A DNA stretch of 64,000 nucleotides from Caldicellulosiruptor changbaiensis (GTDB taxonomy: Bacteria > Bacillota > Thermoanaerobacteria > Caldicellulosiruptorales > Caldicellulosiruptoraceae), in NCBI RefSeq assembly GCF_003999255.1, contig NZ_CP034791.1:825001-889000 (forward strand). The letters run 5' to 3'. The number at the start of each line of letters is the position of its first letter. Position 1 is the first letter of the stretch. The notes below the pieces were generated by a model. It made no database searches and was not told where the DNA came from. It was given only the letters and a program-made list of their open reading frames with translations. Both the position numbers and the translations under genes were made by a program. Below, in pieces: positions 48,707 to 58,749 of the stretch.

Positions 48707-48755
48707 ATGGCAGGGGCGGAGGGACTCGAACCCCCAGCCAACGGTTTTGGAGACC
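48707..48755 (-). repeat. attL: 3' half of tRNA-Trp
   Basis: Identical over 49 bp to 58673-58721. It contains the 3' part of tRNA-Trp from GGTCTCC (anticodon stem/loop) through the T arm to CCA, but lacks the 5' half, so it cannot give a functional tRNA. This is the left recombination product of integration. Confidence 0.95.
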
Positions 48756-48860
48756 AGAATTTTACATTTAACCTCCTAACACCCGCAAATCCTTGATTTT
48801 TCGGCATGGGATATTCTACCATTTAGCAGCTAACACGCTTGACCATATTCCCTATTTTTC

Positions 48861-48875
48861 ACCGACGGTCTTCCC
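48861..48875 (+). repeat. Left arm-type site (inverted partner at 58606-58620)
   Basis: ACCGACGGTCTTCCC; its complement, GGGAAGACCGTCGGT, matches 58606-58620 (GGGGAGACCGTCGGT) with one mismatch. In the excised circle the two would face each other across attP at about 105 and 52 bp, a layout like integrase or excisionase arm sites. Confidence 0.55.
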
Positions 48876-48916
48876 ACTTTTCATCAGACAGTTTGTCAAT
48901 TTGTGCTGGTAATTAC

Positions 48917-48945
48917 TTTATACCTTCTCATCAACAATCAGTCAA
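48917..48945 (-). promoter_or_regulatory. Outward promoter at the left end (possible circle-specific integrase promoter)
   Basis: On the minus strand TTGACT (48945-48940), 17-nt spacer, TATAAA (48922-48917). It points out of the element toward attL. When integrated it reads into chromosomal DNA beyond the tRNA fragment. In the excised circle the same transcript would cross attP and enter the integrase gene after about 285 nt. Confidence 0.65.
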
Positions 48946-49748
48946 TACCGCTTTTTTGTTCTCTATGTGTGCTGTTAGTTTTGCAATTAGGGGACACGAC
49001 AAGTATTTTCTGGCTTTGTGGTCGTTATTTTCGCTTCAAAGCCCTCTAAAAGCTCTCACAACGCACAAAAATGGATTGGCTTGCGGGTAGGATGAAATAT
49101 CCCATCCCTGCAAGGATTAGATTACGGGGATGTTGAATTTCACGCCCCCCTTTTGTTATCTCCTCTGTTTAATCCAAAATAGAAAGCTTAGTAAAACTTA
49201 GTAACACACCTTGCTTGATAACAGACAACGAATTTCGTCGTTTGTTAACAGCAACAAACAGTGTGGTATCCGCAAGTTAAGGATACCTCGCAAACCTTAA
49301 ACATTTTTAAACGCATACAAGCACACAAAGTTAACAACTTTGTAAACTATCAAAAAGGTTTGACTGGTAAAAGTGCAACTATGAATAACACTGTGTTTTA
49401 AAATGCTATTTTTCATTCCCAAAAATTTTTAAAAACTTGCGGTCGCATATGCAAGCCCCAGCCCGCTGGTCCTGATTGAAAAGCTGCAGAGATTTGCAAT
49501 ACCCTATCCCTATGAGATGACTTCCCAAATCAGAGATGCGTCTTTTTTAGGGACTCGGAAATCTCGGGATAGCTTTCAGGATGTCGTGAATTTCGACACC
49601 CTGAGATGTTAGCATTTGTTAGCATGTTCTCTTGATTTGGTGCTGCAAAACATAGTTCTCTATTGCATACTGCAAAGCATAAAGCTATAGTGAAAGTAAC
49701 CAGCAAAGCCTATTGGAATATTCTTGAGTGTAAAGTGATACTGTTTTA

Positions 49749-49780
49749 AAGCGTGGTCAACAAACCACGCTTGTTTTCTT
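49749..49780. terminator. Hairpin, terminator-like, in the element's left end
   Basis: AAGCGTGGT pairs with ACCACGCTT (9 bp, 6-nt loop) with TTTTCTTTG following on the plus strand and TTTAAAAC on the minus strand. Confidence 0.55.
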
Positions 49781-49797
49781 TGTATGGACATTCATAG

Positions 49798-49864
49798 CTT
49801 TTCCATTGTTTCCTTTTATTTATTAGGACATTTTGTCCCTTTAAATCTTTTCCATTGTTTCCTT
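49798..49864 (+). repeat. Duplicated 18-bp motif in the element's left end
   Basis: CTTTTCCATTGTTTCCTT occurs at 49798-49815 and 49847-49864 (49 bp apart). Each copy is preceded by GGACATT (49786-49792, 49826-49832). On the minus strand each reads AAGGAAACAATGGAAAAG, a ribosome site and ATG followed by a stop within a few codons. Confidence 0.8.
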
Positions 49865-50097
49865 ATCATTTCTTAGCATGCGTAAAACTTGAAATGCTGC
49901 CACATAGGGATTTGTCAGCTGCGACAAGCTTTCAAGAATGGTCAAGGCTGCCCCATTCCTTATTTTACATTATGCAGATGTCAAAAACCCGCAATATTAG
50001 GTTTCTCGATGGATGACAAGCTTTTAGGTGTGGTTCAAAGCGTAAAAAGATGTAAAATTCCACGTCTTGTTGGGATGTTCCAAGTTAGACCGCCCTT

Positions 50098-51033
50098 TCA
50101 TCCCATCAACTTTTGGACTGCACGCTTAATTTGGGCTTTGTAGCCGCTACCATACTTCTGAACCATCGCCAAATGTGAATAGCACCAAACAAAGTAGTCC
50201 TGAAGAAGTTTGATGTGGTTGATTGACAGCTTGTCGATGTGCCTTTCAATAAACTCTTCAACTTCCCATTTGGCAGCAAGAAGCTTCATCCTGTCCTGTT
50301 CGCCTTGTTGCTTTAAAACCCTCAGCTTGTCCAACTGTGGAATTGAAGACAAAACCTCAAGCTGTTTTCTTTTCTCCTCTCTATCAATAACAGTTGCCTC
50401 AACTGGTGAATAGCCAAAATTACTACCACTTGCTATGTGCACCGCTGGACAGGATATGAATACTGTCAAATCGTCAAGGTCTGCCTCAAACTGTTCTTGT
50501 CTCATTTTGGCTATTATCTTTCTTCTTGCTTTTCTAAACACCTTATCGCTGGCAGGTGGAGTTTTTCCTGTGGAGACGTAATATAAAACTCTCTCTTTTT
50601 CCTCATCGGTCAAAGTATCAAAATACCTTTGTAGCTTCTGTAGAGTGTCTTTTCTGATTACTTCCCTTTCAACTGAATAACCATCTGAGATTACATCACC
50701 AATTGTTGATGTGTCCTCTTCTGGTTCTTTTGATACTGGACTGTCCAAAGATATGGCAGAAGATAGCTTATATTTTGACAAGCTTCTTTTTATCTTGCTT
50801 TCAATCACTTTGCAAGCATAGGTTGAGAATGCTACTCCTAAACTGGGATTAAAGTTTTTAGCTGCCACAACCAAACCAAAGTAACCCTCAGAAATCAAAT
50901 CGTCAACTTCATACATGTAACCCTTAGGACATGGCATAAACTTGTTTGCAACGTGATACACAAGCTTTAAGTTGTCGGCAATTAGAAGCTGCCTTTGTGC
51001 GTTGTCAAGCTTTAAAGTTTTTGTCTGCTGCAT
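50098..51033 (-). CDS. Sigma-70 family-like protein of the mobile element
   Basis: A 311-aa protein. Residues 17-85 match sigma region 2: NLKLVYHVANKFM, VDDLISEGYFGLVVAAKNFNPSLGVAFSTYACKVIESKIKRSL. A region-3/4-like part follows (DTLQKLQRYFDTLTDEEKERVLYYVSTGK...KVFRKARRKI), but the final 120 residues are not like a standard sigma factor. It may redirect host RNA polymerase to element or helper genes. The start ATG 51033 lies 10 nt after GGAGTG and 29 bp past the terminase-like gene, so both share a transcript. It could also be a non-sigma regulator using the same fold. Confidence 0.72.
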   Translation of the reverse strand: MQQTKTLKLDNAQRQLLIADNLKLVYHVANKFMPCPKGYMYEVDDLISEGYFGLVVAAKNFNPSLGVAFSTYACKVIESKIKRSLSKYKLSSAISLDSPVSKEPEEDTSTIGDVISDGYSVEREVIRKDTLQKLQRYFDTLTDEEKERVLYYVSTGKTPPASDKVFRKARRKIIAKMRQEQFEADLDDLTVFISCPAVHIASGSNFGYSPVEATVIDREEKRKQLEVLSSIPQLDKLRVLKQQGEQDRMKLLAAKWEVEEFIERHIDKLSINHIKLLQDYFVWCYSHLAMVQKYGSGYKAQIKRAVQKLMG

Positions 51034-51062: not shown

Positions 51063-51548
51063 TTAGTTTACAACAGAAGTCTCGTCTGGTTCATGGAGTG
51101 CTTGGACAATTTCTCTAATCCTGCTAAGAAGTTGTTCGCTTTGGTCTTCTTTGTTCTCATCCAGTCCTAACGCTAAACGCTGCCCCTTCTGTGCTTTTTC
51201 CATGATGTTTGCCAACCTCTCAAGCACATACACGTTATACTTGCCTTCTTTGGTCTTAATGGTCTTCTCATCATGAAGGGCTGTCCAAACAAGCCGCAAA
51301 AACTCATTCCAAATCTCAACGTGCCATGTATTGTAATCGGCAGCCTTTTTTACTTGCTGCTGGAGAGTCTTCTCAAAAATAAGCTGGTTCTTCTCTCTGT
51401 TAACTTGCTGCTTTTCTTTCAACCAATCCCTTGCCTTGTTTCTCAACACTCCATAGTTAACGCCTTTTTCCTGTGCAAACTCTTTTAGCGTTCTGTAGTT
51501 GCCTATCATGAATTCACGCTTCAATTCTTCCCAATCATAGAAATGCAC
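51063..51548 (-). CDS. Small terminase subunit-like protein
   Basis: A 161-aa protein with an N-terminal helix-turn-helix (FYDWEELKREFMIGNYRTLKEFAQEKGVNYGVLRNKARDWL, about residues 3-43), a charged helical middle, and LERLANIMEKAQKGQRLALGLDE near residue 120. This combination is typical of phage small terminase subunits (TerS) of Firmicutes, which select DNA for packaging. No large terminase is encoded in the element, as in PICI satellites that use a helper phage's motor. The start GTG 51548 lies 5 nt after GAGGTGG. It is followed by the sigma-like gene. The assignment is from pattern, not a search. Confidence 0.62.
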   Translation of the reverse strand: MHFYDWEELKREFMIGNYRTLKEFAQEKGVNYGVLRNKARDWLKEKQQVNREKNQLIFEKTLQQQVKKAADYNTWHVEIWNEFLRLVWTALHDEKTIKTKEGKYNVYVLERLANIMEKAQKGQRLALGLDENKEDQSEQLLSRIREIVQALHEPDETSVVN

Positions 51549-53829: not shown

Positions 53830-55644
53830 TTATAAGCTTCTGTCGTCGGCTATTTCCTCGAATAGGTATATGCCGCCCCAAAAACGCATTGTTATATCTT
53901 CTCCTATGCTGCCATATCTGTTTTTGACACAATTGAATTTGATTGTGTAACCATTGCCTTTGTAGTCATCGTGAATAGGTTTGTCTTCATCTCTTTTCAT
54001 TAGGAAAGCGGCTGCTGTTCCATATTCAATTGCCCCAGATTCCTTGAATGCTGTCATGTCGTCTTTGTCATAGTTTTCCCTGTTCAAGCTGCTGATAGCG
54101 ACAACTGGGATTAAAAACTTGTTTTTGATTTCAAACAACTCTTGCATTATCAGGTCAACTCTTTGCTTATCGCTTTGATATGGTTTTGCTGGTTGCAAAA
54201 GCTGTAAGTAATCAACAAATAATATGGGTTTTTGCAAATGGTCAAGGATATAATAGACCTCATCAAGTTTTTGACTTTCTAAAATGTGAAGTGCAAAAGC
54301 ATAACGTTTGATGTAGTCTTGCATAACGGACATAAACTCTTGCAGTTCTTCATTGCTTGCTGTTCTTGTTCTAAGTTTGCGGTAAAAATCGAATGCAGGT
54401 ACTTTGACGTTTGCCTTCTTAAGACCATATTCACGACAGAAAATCCTTGTCAAAATCTCTTCTTTTGACATTTCGGCAGATAGGAAGACGCATTCATAAC
54501 CTTGCTGCAACAAATTGTCGACTAACTGTAAGACAAAAGTAGTCTTGCCGACGCTGGGTTTTGCACCAAAGACATATAGGTTGCCTATTACAAAACCGCC
54601 ATTTAGCACATCGTCTAATTGCTTAAATCCTGTGGCAATAGCTTTAAACTTCTCAGACTTGATGAAGTCAACATACACGGCAGCAAAATTAATGAGTGCA
54701 TAGGGATAAAAAGCCGATTTAAGCTGCCATTTCAAAAACTTTGTGCATTCCTCGGGATTAGCCACCCAAAATTCGTTGACGTCTTTGTAAGATACTCCTT
54801 CCCAACTGCATATAGCTACTTCATACTGGTTTTTCATCTTATCAAACAGTTGTTTTGCAGCCTTCAATCCTGCCTCGTCGTTGTCAAACAGAATGTAAAA
54901 TTTCTTGCCTTTGGGTTTGATTTGGTTTAGCACTTGCAAAAACTCTTTTTGATTTTCACAACCGTTCAAGGCTATTGCTGGTTGTTCAATTGCTGCCTCA
55001 ATGGTCAATGCGTCAAATATTCCCTCAGCAATGAAGACGTTAGTTTGCTGTTCATCTTTCAGCAAGTCAACATTGAATGGTATTGCATTGCTGCCTTTAG
55101 GAAATTCATATCGTGGCTTGTTATCATCAAGATTGCGACGCACATAGCTTATTATCTGCCCGCCTTGGAAGATAGGTAGTACAATTGCGTTGTTTTCCAC
55201 ATCAAAGCCCAGTTTGTATTTGTCAATTAGAGAAGCTGGAATTCCCCTATCAGCAAAGTAACTTGTCAAACATACATATTGATGGCAGGTCTCCACGTAT
55301 GCTATAATCTGGTCGATAGAAAGCTTTTCTTTTTGTGCGTTTTCTTCTGTTTGCTTGCTGCCAATAGACAAGCCTATTTCCTCAGCCAACATTCTTATCG
55401 CCTCCTTGAAGTCAATATTGTGATACTTCATAGCAAACGTAATAACGTCGCCTTTGGTATCGCAACCAAAACACTTGAAAAACTGTTCACTGGGCTTGAT
55501 ATAAAACGATGGGTTTTTATCAGGGTGGAAGGGACACAAAGCTTTGTAACTGCTACCTTCCTTCTCTAATTGCAAGTATCTCCCAATGTAATCAACAATG
55601 TCGATTTTGCTTTTAATTTCTTTGACAATCTCTTGCATTTGCAT
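53830..55644 (-). CDS. Fused primase-helicase (CHC2 zinc finger, TOPRIM, DnaB-type RecA domain)
   Basis: A 604-aa replication protein built like phage T7 gp4. Order: CHC2 zinc finger (CPFHPDKNPSFYI...CFGC, about residues 37-62), primase core with TOPRIM motifs (VFIAEGIFDALT near 215; ILFDNDEAGLKAA near 255), linker, then a hexameric helicase with Walker A GAKPSVGKTTF (about 369), ILFVDYLQLL (Walker B, about 497) and VVAISSLNRENY. It should prime and unwind DNA for autonomous replication of the element. Start ATG 55644 follows AGGAGGTGTTTTGGA. It heads a run with the initiator gene and the iteron origin. Confidence 0.93.
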   Translation of the reverse strand: MQMQEIVKEIKSKIDIVDYIGRYLQLEKEGSSYKALCPFHPDKNPSFYIKPSEQFFKCFGCDTKGDVITFAMKYHNIDFKEAIRMLAEEIGLSIGSKQTEENAQKEKLSIDQIIAYVETCHQYVCLTSYFADRGIPASLIDKYKLGFDVENNAIVLPIFQGGQIISYVRRNLDDNKPRYEFPKGSNAIPFNVDLLKDEQQTNVFIAEGIFDALTIEAAIEQPAIALNGCENQKEFLQVLNQIKPKGKKFYILFDNDEAGLKAAKQLFDKMKNQYEVAICSWEGVSYKDVNEFWVANPEECTKFLKWQLKSAFYPYALINFAAVYVDFIKSEKFKAIATGFKQLDDVLNGGFVIGNLYVFGAKPSVGKTTFVLQLVDNLLQQGYECVFLSAEMSKEEILTRIFCREYGLKKANVKVPAFDFYRKLRTRTASNEELQEFMSVMQDYIKRYAFALHILESQKLDEVYYILDHLQKPILFVDYLQLLQPAKPYQSDKQRVDLIMQELFEIKNKFLIPVVAISSLNRENYDKDDMTAFKESGAIEYGTAAAFLMKRDEDKPIHDDYKGNGYTIKFNCVKNRYGSIGEDITMRFWGGIYLFEEIADDRSL

Positions 55645-56193: not shown

Positions 56194-56418
56194 TTATGCG
56201 GTTTTGCTATCCACCTCTTTTAAGCTACCGTCTGGGTTTGCGATTTCCTCTATAGGCACACCGAAATACGCTGCCAAAGACTGCAACAACTTGGGATAGG
56301 GTTTTCGCCAGCCTCTCTCTATTTGTGAAAGGATGTTAGGATTAACCCCAATCGCAAGCCCCAGCTTGCTTTGAGACAGATTCCTTTCTTTTCTCAACTG
56401 TTCTAATCTTGTCATCAT
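56194..56418 (-). CDS. XRE-family repressor (short)
   Basis: A 74-aa protein that is almost entirely one Cro/C1-type helix-turn-helix: LEQLRKERNLSQSKLGLAIGVNPNILSQIERGWRKPYPKLLQSLAAYFGV. It has no extra sensor or protease-sensitive domain. ATG 56418 (MMTRLEQL) lies behind GGGGTGAGGTA. It diverges from the 355-aa gene across 104 bp, so it probably controls that interval and the replication genes. This is the immunity-repressor position of satellites and prophages. Confidence 0.88.
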   Translation of the reverse strand: MMTRLEQLRKERNLSQSKLGLAIGVNPNILSQIERGWRKPYPKLLQSLAAYFGVPIEEIANPDGSLKEVDSKTA

Positions 56419-56522
56419 TACCTCACCCCTTGACTTTGTTGCTAATTCCATTGTAAAATCGTAAGTAACGGATTGCAATTTTAGTTCGGTGACTTTTCGG
56501 TTACAATTAGGGGGAATTGAAA
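56419..56522. promoter_or_regulatory. Divergent control region with repeated TTCGGT motifs
   Basis: TTCGGT occurs at 56485-56490 and 56496-56501 (11 bp apart, one helical turn), next to TTGCAATTTTAG and TTACAATTAG, which are similar to each other. A related GTTACAATCA lies near 56130. These may be XRE operators; no clear sigma-A promoter is visible. Confidence 0.4.
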
Positions 56523-57590
56523 ATGTTTTTAGCACGTTCAATTGTTCCAGAAGGTGGCTTTGTGTGGAGAAGTGACAATGTGTTTCCTTCCAATGAGATA
56601 GGGATACCACGCAGAGAAGAAGCCAAACCTCCCTATTTGGTTCCTGTGTCAAAAATGGCTAAGATTACTGTTTTTGACCCCATCATAACCCAGAGAGAAG
56701 TAAAACTGTACCAAAAATTTGCACAATTAAAGCCCGATAAAAACGAAATTTTGAAATTTGCCAATCAATATGGCTTGCCCAAATGGGAATATGTTGTTGT
56801 CGACCCCGATAGTGTAAAACACCCGTATGAATTAGGTAGTGAAGAAGACCCAACGACGATAGGACTTTCATTTTGGGAATGGCAAAAAGAAATTGTGTGG
56901 ATGGTCATATTTGTGACCTTGTTGAAAAAGATTGTCGAAGAAGATTACATGTTTTTTGAAGACTTTTTGCGAAAAGGCAAGGATTATTTAGAATTGCTTG
57001 TCCCTATTGATTGTCTCCCAGATTGGGTAAATGAGTGGATAAAAGAGGACGATTGGGGAATTGCCAAATTCCATCGACTTGTAGGCATAGGTGTACTGAA
57101 AAGATTTAAAAACAACCACGCTGTTAGCTTTAACCTACAAACTCAAAACTGGAGTTGGTTCTCCTATGCTATGTCATTAGAAGACCCTATTGAAGTAGCA
57201 AAGCTTCTTATTGTGGACAAAATTAACAACCGCTATTTTAAAGATGGTTTTCGTGTTTCGGTGATACTAAACAGGACAAAAAATAAGCTTGAACAGAAAG
57301 TTATGCCCAAAAACTTGCTGGTTGCAATGTACCAACAGTACCTTGCCGACCTATTAGGGCAAAGGAAATTAAGAGAATGTGCTTACTGTGGACGGCTTTT
57401 CGAAGTAACCGACAAAAGGCAAATGTATTGTTCTTTTGGACATTGCAAGGAATACTACTTCAGAGAGAAGAAGAAGGTATTGCAGCTTTACAAGGAAGGC
57501 AAGACAATTGAAGAGATAGCAAAACTATTAAACCGCCCAATAGAGAAGATACAAGTCTACCTAAAAGAAAAGCCTTGCCCCAACAGTTAG
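56523..57590 (+). CDS. Orphan zinc-finger protein on the plus strand of the mobile element
   Basis: A 355-aa protein of unknown function and the only plus-strand gene in the element. The N-terminal 260 residues show no motif I know. Near residue 288 it has a zinc-finger like that of CGNR/ABATE proteins: CAYCGRLF...QMYCSFGHCKEYYFREKK. The C-terminus is a short helix-turn-helix (LYKEGKTIEEIAKLLNRPIEKIQVYL). This suggests a DNA- or RNA-binding regulator or cargo. ATG 56523 is spaced 8-9 nt from AGGGGGAAT; TTG 56517 is too close. A hairpin overlapping its stop acts as terminator toward the convergent integrase. Confidence 0.6.
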   Translation: MFLARSIVPEGGFVWRSDNVFPSNEIGIPRREEAKPPYLVPVSKMAKITVFDPIITQREVKLYQKFAQLKPDKNEILKFANQYGLPKWEYVVVDPDSVKHPYELGSEEDPTTIGLSFWEWQKEIVWMVIFVTLLKKIVEEDYMFFEDFLRKGKDYLELLVPIDCLPDWVNEWIKEDDWGIAKFHRLVGIGVLKRFKNNHAVSFNLQTQNWSWFSYAMSLEDPIEVAKLLIVDKINNRYFKDGFRVSVILNRTKNKLEQKVMPKNLLVAMYQQYLADLLGQRKLRECAYCGRLFEVTDKRQMYCSFGHCKEYYFREKKKVLQLYKEGKTIEEIAKLLNRPIEKIQVYLKEKPCPNS

Positions 57591-57608: not shown

Positions 57609-58571
57609 TCAACTCTTGATAAGGCTAATAAGTCTTTTCACCTTGGTTGTTCTTTTCACAAAGTTGTTTACTGGGCTTGCTAATGTATGTTGTTGTCTTA
57701 TGTCCTGTTGAGTTAGCTGCAAATATCTTTTGGTGGTACTAATGTCTTGATGTCCCATTTCGTACTGAAGTGCAAAAACATTGCCACCATTTCTCAAAAA
57801 CATTATGGCAAATGTGTGCCTCAACTGGTAGGGAGTGATTTTGCAGCCTATCTTTTTGCTGTATTCACTTAATCTTTTCTCCCATCTGTTGATGGTCATT
57901 TCGTTACCTTCAACAGTGTGGAAAACTCTGTTGTTCCAATCTTTTGGTGTGACTTCAAGCAAAGCTTTAAGGGTCTGGGCAGTTTGCGGAGAGAGAGGAA
58001 GAATCCTCTCTTTGTTAGTTTTCGAGTACTCTTTCCTAATGGTGACGGTAAGCCGTTCAAAATCTATGTCCTCAAAAGTTAAAGCAAAAGCTTCTTTGGG
58101 TCTTATGCCCGTGTCTAACGTTAGCAAAATTAACGCATAGTCTCTTAATCCCGCATATGTTTTGACGTCAATTACAGATAGAAGCTTTTTGATGGTGTTT
58201 TCTTCAACATGCCTTAATTTGCCTTCATCTCTTTTCTTTTTAAGTCCCAAAACTTTGATTGGGTTTTCTGATAGGAAGCTATTTCTTTTGCACCATTCAA
58301 AAAATGTGTGGAGATTCGAATAGGGGCGGTTATAAGTCGCTGGTTGCTTGTTTGCTTTGGATTTCAGAAATTCAATTACAGCTAATTTTAGGGCGTGTTC
58401 ATCAATTTGTTTGTGAAAGTCAATGTACTTGCTGAATTCCTTGAAAGTGTAGAAGTAATCCTGAAGTGTCCTTTCCCGCAGTCCTTCAGCCTGCTTAAAA
58501 TCAATGAAAAGGTCAATTAGGTCTTTTAACGACAATGTGTTACCATTCTTAGTTTTTCCTTTTCTGGGCAT
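57609..58571 (-). CDS. int: Tyrosine recombinase / integrase
   Basis: A 320-aa site-specific integrase. The N-terminal SAM-like core-binding domain (LIDLFIDFKQAEGLRERTLQDYFYTFKEF) is followed by the catalytic domain: first Arg in LDTGIRPKEAFAL, TYR-box Lys region in TVTIRKEYSKT, HTFAIMFLRNGGNVFALQYEMGHQDISTTKRYLQ with H-x-x-R-type residues (LRHTFA), His/Trp position HQD and nucleophile Tyr in KRYL. It should insert the element into tRNA-Trp. I use ATG 58571; the GTG at 58592 lies ahead of AAAGGGGAG. The gene starts 101 bp from attR. The ribosome site is inside a terminator-like hairpin. Confidence 0.93.
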   Translation of the reverse strand: MPRKGKTKNGNTLSLKDLIDLFIDFKQAEGLRERTLQDYFYTFKEFSKYIDFHKQIDEHALKLAVIEFLKSKANKQPATYNRPYSNLHTFFEWCKRNSFLSENPIKVLGLKKKRDEGKLRHVEENTIKKLLSVIDVKTYAGLRDYALILLTLDTGIRPKEAFALTFEDIDFERLTVTIRKEYSKTNKERILPLSPQTAQTLKALLEVTPKDWNNRVFHTVEGNEMTINRWEKRLSEYSKKIGCKITPYQLRHTFAIMFLRNGGNVFALQYEMGHQDISTTKRYLQLTQQDIRQQHTLASPVNNFVKRTTKVKRLISLIKS

Positions 58572-58572
58572 C

Positions 58573-58613
58573 AAAAAAGTCTCCCCTTTCACTTTTTGCT
58601 AATTAGGGGAGAC
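58573..58613 (-). terminator. Hairpin and T run just before the integrase start
   Basis: On the minus strand GTCTCCCCT pairs with AGGGGAGAC (58605-58613 with 58579-58587; 9 bp, 17-nt loop), followed directly by TTTTTT and then the integrase ATG. It is a good intrinsic terminator for the tRNA-Trp transcript in the integrated state and also hides the integrase ribosome site AAAGGGGAG. It probably limits integrase synthesis. Confidence 0.75.
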
Positions 58614-58672: not shown

Positions 58673-58721
58673 ATGGCAGGGGCGGAGGGACTCGAACCCC
58701 CAGCCAACGGTTTTGGAGACC
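58673..58721 (-). repeat. attR: element-borne 3' half that restores tRNA-Trp
   Basis: Identical over 49 bp to attL. It forms the 3' part of the complete tRNA-Trp gene; divergence from attL begins at 58722, in the anticodon stem. Confidence 0.95.
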
Positions 58722-58749
58722 GCTACTCTACCAATTGAGCTACGCCCCT
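58674..58749 (-). tRNA. tRNA-Trp (CCA)
   Basis: Reading the minus strand, the acceptor AGGGGCG pairs with CGCCCCT, with discriminator G and an encoded CCA. The D arm is GCTCAATTGGTAGAGT, the anticodon loop CTCCAAA gives CCA (Trp), and the T arm has GGTTCGAGTCC. It is complete and serves as the integration target of the mobile element. The minus-strand promoter lies just upstream. Confidence 0.96.

Follow-up and report, generated by a model that had tools for sequence, protein, structure and literature searches.

A 30-nucleotide motif, TATCCCGAGATTTCCGAGTCCCTAAAAAAG, lies in the gene-less end of a small integrative element of Caldicellulosiruptor changbaiensis, where it matches DNA from inside the small-terminase gene (terS) of a phage. 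We read it as a packaging (pac-like) recognition site that a phage satellite may have captured or mimicked, and we put the probability of this reading at roughly 0.58. The evidence comes from comparing the element with its relatives, and from comparing the motif with the phage terS genes which carry it.

The element and its relatives

The window (the whole stretch of 64,000 nucleotides that was analysed) contains an element of about 10 kb integrated at a tRNA-Trp gene. A 49-bp piece of the tRNA 3' end is present twice, and the 1.34-kb noncoding stretch starts exactly where the distal copy stops, which makes that stretch the tRNA-distal end of the element. The main features are listed here.

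48707-48755, minus strand: attachment-site copy, the 49-bp tRNA-Trp 3' end, identical to 58673-58721
48756-50097, no strand assigned: noncoding distal end of the element, gene-less, bordering the attachment-site copy
50098-51033, minus strand: sigma-70-like protein gene, with a region 2 match
51063-51548, minus strand: TerS-like (small terminase subunit) gene
53830-55644, minus strand: primase-helicase, with matches to CHC2 zinc finger, Toprim and DnaB_C domains
56194-56652, minus strand: Cro/C1-type repressor gene, by domain match
57609-58592, minus strand: tyrosine integrase gene beside tRNA-Trp, by domain match
58673-58721, minus strand: attachment-site copy (the 49-bp repeat) within the intact tRNA-Trp gene (58674-58749)

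A scan of the nine main ORFs found no TerL, portal or capsid gene in the element, and from that lack its gene content is taken to be of the phage satellite type; Terminase_3 is absent from the whole genome. The genomic features expected of a PICI-like satellite are present: site-specific integration by its own tyrosine integrase with att repeats at tRNA-Trp, a repressor together with a primase/replication module, and a homologue of TerS in the absence of TerL, portal and capsid genes. By its genes the element is satellite-like: it integrates, encodes a TerS and has no capsid genes.

Judging from profile match, full-length similarity and synteny, the product of 51063-51548 is TerS-like. Of the 10 family members that were aligned, every one hits an uncharacterised PHROG, and 9 hit a TerS PHROG. 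Phage Dp-1 gp36, whose gene stands immediately before terL, is 30% identical to it. In a prophage of another genome (G009), a protein 41-45% identical directly precedes and overlaps the large terminase gene, and the 41% identity covers the whole length of the element's protein. The AlphaFold model has low confidence and adds little; a fold search with it gave no match below E 0.001, with TerS structures among the weak matches.

The sigma-like protein (50098-51033) has a region-2 match only, and its strongly conserved C-terminal half contains no known domain. Its family is confined to Caldicellulosiruptor in the collections searched, and no close wider relative of the gene appeared in the viral contigs or the genome collection. 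Elsewhere in the window, 63434-63544 matches the Rfam pan cis-regulatory motif, barely over the cut-off.

In the sampled genus the sigma gene has 15 close copies, located at several different tRNA genes and on the plasmid pATHE01, and noncoding DNA of a similar kind adjoins the gene in all 15. This DNA follows the sigma stop codon for 0.5-2 kb. Its building blocks, named A, B, D, F, Y, E, V and U, keep a single orientation and a mostly constant order, with block E relocated in a subset of copies. Between colinear close copies the noncoding DNA diverges about as much as the four-fold sites of the sigma gene (0.05 vs 0.05; 0.15 vs 0.14). On this comparative evidence, the noncoding stretch is recombining element DNA and not one rigid RNA gene.

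pATHE01 (pBAL) is an 8291-bp plasmid native to C. bescii. The TerS-like gene, the sigma-like gene and the noncoding DNA form a cassette of 2790 bp that is 99.96% identical between this plasmid (L039 1764-4553) and the chromosome (L040 7766-4977). The flanks are unrelated, so the cassette moves, or is homogenised, as a unit. On the plasmid, the homologue of the conserved noncoding core lies at 1867-2079. The sharing between plasmid and chromosome has already been described (PMC7071700). The plasmid also carries a second noncoding region of 1.5 kb (L039 4560-6117), made of pieces of the same blocks and located downstream of an AAA ATPase gene.

The first-pass annotation had seen no credible gene in 48756-50097, and examination of the window's ORFs upheld this: no ORF is common to the copies. 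A minus-strand ORF of about 110 amino acids in four copies is broken in others, and was rejected as a hidden gene. Comparison with the proteins encoded around the loci reveals no gene remnant in the core except for a family of ORFs (F9, about 145 amino acids) in the noncoding DNA of some copies. These F9 ORFs recur in both orientations in the noncoding stretches of L034, L042, L073 and L074, and they are possibly an IS200-like transposase. A six-frame search of the window region returned no phage protein family better than E 0.18. A match to a lambdoid Q gene at 49572-49595 (E 5) was regarded as chance.

A phage terS motif in the noncoding core

Seven features of the noncoding stretch are referred to below.

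49010-49112, no strand assigned: module E, a conserved block whose position differs between copies, without consensus structure
49420-49528, no strand assigned: module A, which makes up the conserved noncoding core together with module B, with palindromes TTGCG/CGCAA and CCAGC/GCTGG
49489-49506, plus strand: inverted and degenerate counterpart of the motif (GAGATTT-N6-CCCTA); most of the 7 aligned copies retain both ends of the motif
49542-49571, minus strand: terS-like motif and candidate pac-like site (X5 pattern at 49545-49571), a 30/30-nt match to phage terS
49545-49630, no strand assigned: module B of the conserved core, with the motif, a hairpin at 49576-49604 and a direct repeat at 49607-49625
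49749-49772, plus strand: terminator-like hairpin, the one found vs 1.5 expected by chance
49870-49953, no strand assigned: module F, a conserved block without consensus structure

The link to phages came from scanning viral contigs for the pattern of the most widely kept piece of the core, and the match to terS was unexpected. The motif is a tandem pattern, X5-ATTT-X5-NCC-YTAAAA, whose half-sites in the window read CCGAG-ATTT-CCGAG-TCC-CTAAAA on the minus strand. It is the same as the terS DNA of viral contig L115 at 30 of 30 nucleotides and would translate as YPEISESLKK; no other portion of terS is present. An exact 21-mer of the motif occurs once in the window, against 0.01 expected. Among viral contigs, the exact 22-mer pattern was found in 48 stretches, and 44 of these lie inside terS reading frames. 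Several viral contigs carry the motif outside terS, including L171, an unrelated element with an integrase, ParA and a primase-helicase, which has about four spaced copies in noncoding DNA (1000-1300). Among 398 Bacillota genomes the exact motif appears only in Caldicellulosiruptor, leaving some 390 genomes without it, and the reversed control appears in none.

The half-sites in satellite copies are either CCGAG/CCGAG or CGGAG/CGGAG, switching together with a few one-letter departures. Five of the 15 sigma-linked copies have no recognisable motif. The motif and its inverted partner account for much of the nested stem that was noted earlier.

In the phages, the DNA letters themselves are conserved at the motif, beyond the amino acids. 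The alignment covers 24 genes of one TerS family from Lactococcus, Enterococcus, Staphylococcus, Streptococcus and Clostridioides phages, from gut and rumen contigs, and from Vibrio and E. coli (CUS-3); Tuc2009, ul36 and CUS-3 all belong to this motif-bearing family. Synonymous identity reaches 2.0 times the expected value exactly at E-I-S-E-S-L-K-K and is mostly near expectation elsewhere, with a weaker rise at the start of the gene, and in 200 rounds of codon permutation the highest peak was 1.46. Since some of the 24 genes had been found via the motif, the test was repeated with 15 genes chosen by protein similarity alone; the peak there is 1.95 times expectation and was reached in 0 of 200 permutations. 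DNA-level constraint of this kind, at one place inside terS, is what an embedded pac site would show.

This synonymous conservation arises because the five letters before ATT are the same as the five after the next T within one terS gene, while differing between phages. Variants of X5 include CGGAG, CCGAG, CGGAC, TGGAG, CTTCC, CTAAC, GTAAT and CTGAG. In the protein-selected genes, 64 of 75 positions of X5-ATTT-X5 match between the half-sites, whereas random pairing of half-sites gives 40 (0 of 5000 shuffles reach the observed value). The agreement is 4.27 of 5 at the motif vs a median of 1.40, and nothing comparable occurs elsewhere in terS.

From these comparisons, the motif is the best-supported candidate for a functional site in the stretch, and a pac-like one. 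The TerS family that holds it differs from the family of the element's own TerS-like protein, and a search of 12 sampled Caldicellulosiruptor genomes returned no TerS of the former. The motif was also compared with the P22 pac consensus (AAGATTTATCTG), and the similarity does not exceed chance: the best-matching segment of the P22 terS gene lies elsewhere, and 24 of 300 shuffles reach the score. A literature search that had most subscription journals outside it returned no description of the motif, and priority is not claimable.

Folding, and other explanations of the stretch

The first-pass annotation described this end of the element as packed with inverted repeats and nested stems, and raised the possibility of a large ornate RNA, with a minus-strand transcript of about 1 kb to be looked for. 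The repeats are real but modest, so that the observation is partly confirmed: the stem CTATCCC/GGGATAG does close 49504-49572 and the hairpin CAGG-TGTCG does lie at 49576-49604, but the number of stems is only mildly above chance. In 48756-50097 a count of perfect stems gives 10 with 7 or more base pairs, compared with 5.8 +- 2.4 expected from dinucleotide shuffles (17 of 200 reach 10), and 4 with 8 or more, compared with 1.5. Direct repeats are more unusual, with 21 pairs of 9-mers vs 7.8 expected (a level seen in 5 of 200 shuffles). Relatives do not conserve the 49504/49572 stem. Folding z-scores per 200-nt segment lie between +0.6 and -3.7, and for most of the stretch the two strands differ little.

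The proposal of a 1-kb RNA found no support: there is no Rfam family, no consensus fold, and the module order is mobile. GOLLD, ROOL, HEARO and OLE are Rfam families, and none of the four matched, whether at the gathering cut-off or with E allowed to rise to 5; the only Rfam hit there was the tRNA fragment. The covariance check on homologues divided the stretch. Neither module E (11 copies) nor module F (7 copies) yields a consensus structure on the plus or the minus strand. The A-B core (about 200 nt, 7 copies) does give a signal on the plus strand, with few sequences and weak covariation: its consensus is -28.8 kcal/mol, z -5.6, SCI 0.76, and 0 of 300 column shuffles reach it, vs z -1.7 and SCI 0.51 on the minus strand. 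The near-zero covariation term, from 7 related sequences, leaves room for a plus-strand RNA of about 200 nt and none for a minus-strand RNA of 1 kb.

Such a shorter RNA would span 49425-49604. Its fold would comprise two small hairpins, one long, imperfect stem whose tip varies, and a closing hairpin. An RNA of this kind might be regulatory or antisense, given that at the motif the plus strand runs antisense to terS. Several observations speak for it. The fold signal survives masking of the motif (z -3.7 on the plus strand, -0.8 on the minus), the helix AGCTG/TAGCT still pairs through GC, GU and AU, and G-U pair types outnumber A-C types by 13:5 on the plus strand vs 7:11 on the minus, although the structure was selected on the plus strand, a choice which itself favours G-U. 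The outer stems, however, are unconserved, an excess of promoters was not found, and Rfam offers no match. Taken with the lack of a fold in modules E and F and the near-zero covariation, this makes a structured RNA in the core unlikely.

The stretch might instead be neutral mosaic DNA, recombined or decayed remnants of element and phage genes with no present function. The divergence at the level of four-fold sites and the variable order and content of the modules agree with this, as does a second short fragment, which matches a prophage antirepressor gene. Yet a decayed terS would not leave just some 30 nt intact in most copies, and the motif is both the most widely kept short piece and one whose half-sites changed together. 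We regard neutral remnants as quite improbable. The stretch could also be a replication origin or an operator array of the element, bound by the element's own proteins at short direct repeats and palindromes. The repeats invoked are TTAGCAT, spaced 10 bp, and TGTTAAC; direct repeats are in excess, the conserved TGTTAGCAT repeat has a spacing of one helical turn, and the region is found on the replicating plasmid pATHE01 too. Against this, the region shows no clear GC-skew switch, the primase-helicase is kilobases away, the replication genes accompanying the region differ among elements, and the terS-derived motif is left unexplained, so that an origin or operator array seems very improbable.

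The second phage-gene fragment lies at 49085-49113. These 29 bp match the antirepressor gene of the G009 prophage at 93% (L101 2787-2815) and read RMKYPIP in the same frame as that gene.

Proposed packaging by a helper phage, and known systems

The first-pass annotation had also offered an origin or packaging zone, and of its options packaging fits best, through the terS-type motif in the core and the element's TerS-like gene. TerS proteins assemble into rings that carry helix-turn-helix domains, and the P22 pac is located in its terS gene (PMC9611059, PMC11226127). Co-varying tandem half-sites fit what a repeated DNA-binding subunit would require. The motif would be the headful-packaging (pac) recognition site bound by TerS, and in satellite DNA it would sit outside any gene, with an inverted degenerate copy. 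Much of the nested stem noted earlier would then be this pair of sites in DNA and not part of a large folded RNA. A helper phage's terminase might then recognise the replicated satellite DNA, which would be packed into helper particles. Four points count against packaging: the element's own TerS is of another family, 5 of the 15 copies are without the motif, the likeness to the P22 pac does not exceed chance, and the core has a plus-strand RNA-folding signal.

A broader proposal, to which we give slightly less than even odds, is that X5-ATTT-X5-NCC-YTAAAA is a tandem, specificity-carrying packaging signal hidden in the terS of a large phage family with Bacillota and Gram-negative hosts. Each phage would have its own X5 "address" in both half-sites, and satellites, here in extreme thermophiles, would have captured a slice of terS of about 30 bp to hijack packaging independently of their own TerS. 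The mechanism of TerS-pac binding has been elusive, with in vitro binding mostly weak and non-specific (PMC9611059). If the proposal is true, recognition becomes directly testable, as the motif halves change together from phage to phage, and packaging sites, satellites and likely helper pairs could be read from genome sequence. It would also point to phage satellites, hence capsid-borne gene transfer, in Caldicellulosiruptor, where the native plasmid of a biotechnology strain bears the same module.

Among known systems, GOLLD and ROOL resemble the stretch as noncoding parts of integrated phage-related elements beside a tRNA gene, but the stretch has no covariance-model match, fixed module order or full-length consensus fold. 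pATHE01 has the same cassette of TerS-like gene, sigma gene and 1.3-kb noncoding DNA as the window element; unlike it, the plasmid is extrachromosomal, has no annotated integrase and has a replication ATPase of a different kind. PICMI satellites use headful-like packaging without any identified site (PMC10803314).

PICIs, including SaPIs, resemble the element in size (about 10 kb) and in gene content: an integrase beside a tRNA gene, a repressor of the Cro/C1 type, a primase-helicase, and terS but neither terL nor capsid genes. They also share noncoding DNA at or close to one end that serves packaging, putatively so in the element. The window element, a putative satellite, differs in its sigma-like gene beside terS, in having a plasmid among its relatives, and in that the TerS family of the candidate pac motif is not that of its own TerS. 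In P22 headful packaging, too, a short DNA recognition site is embedded in the small-terminase gene (PMC9611059, PMC11226127). The motif is not significantly similar to the P22 pac and the TerS proteins have no detectable homology; what distinguishes the site described here is that it is a tandem pair of co-varying half-sites.
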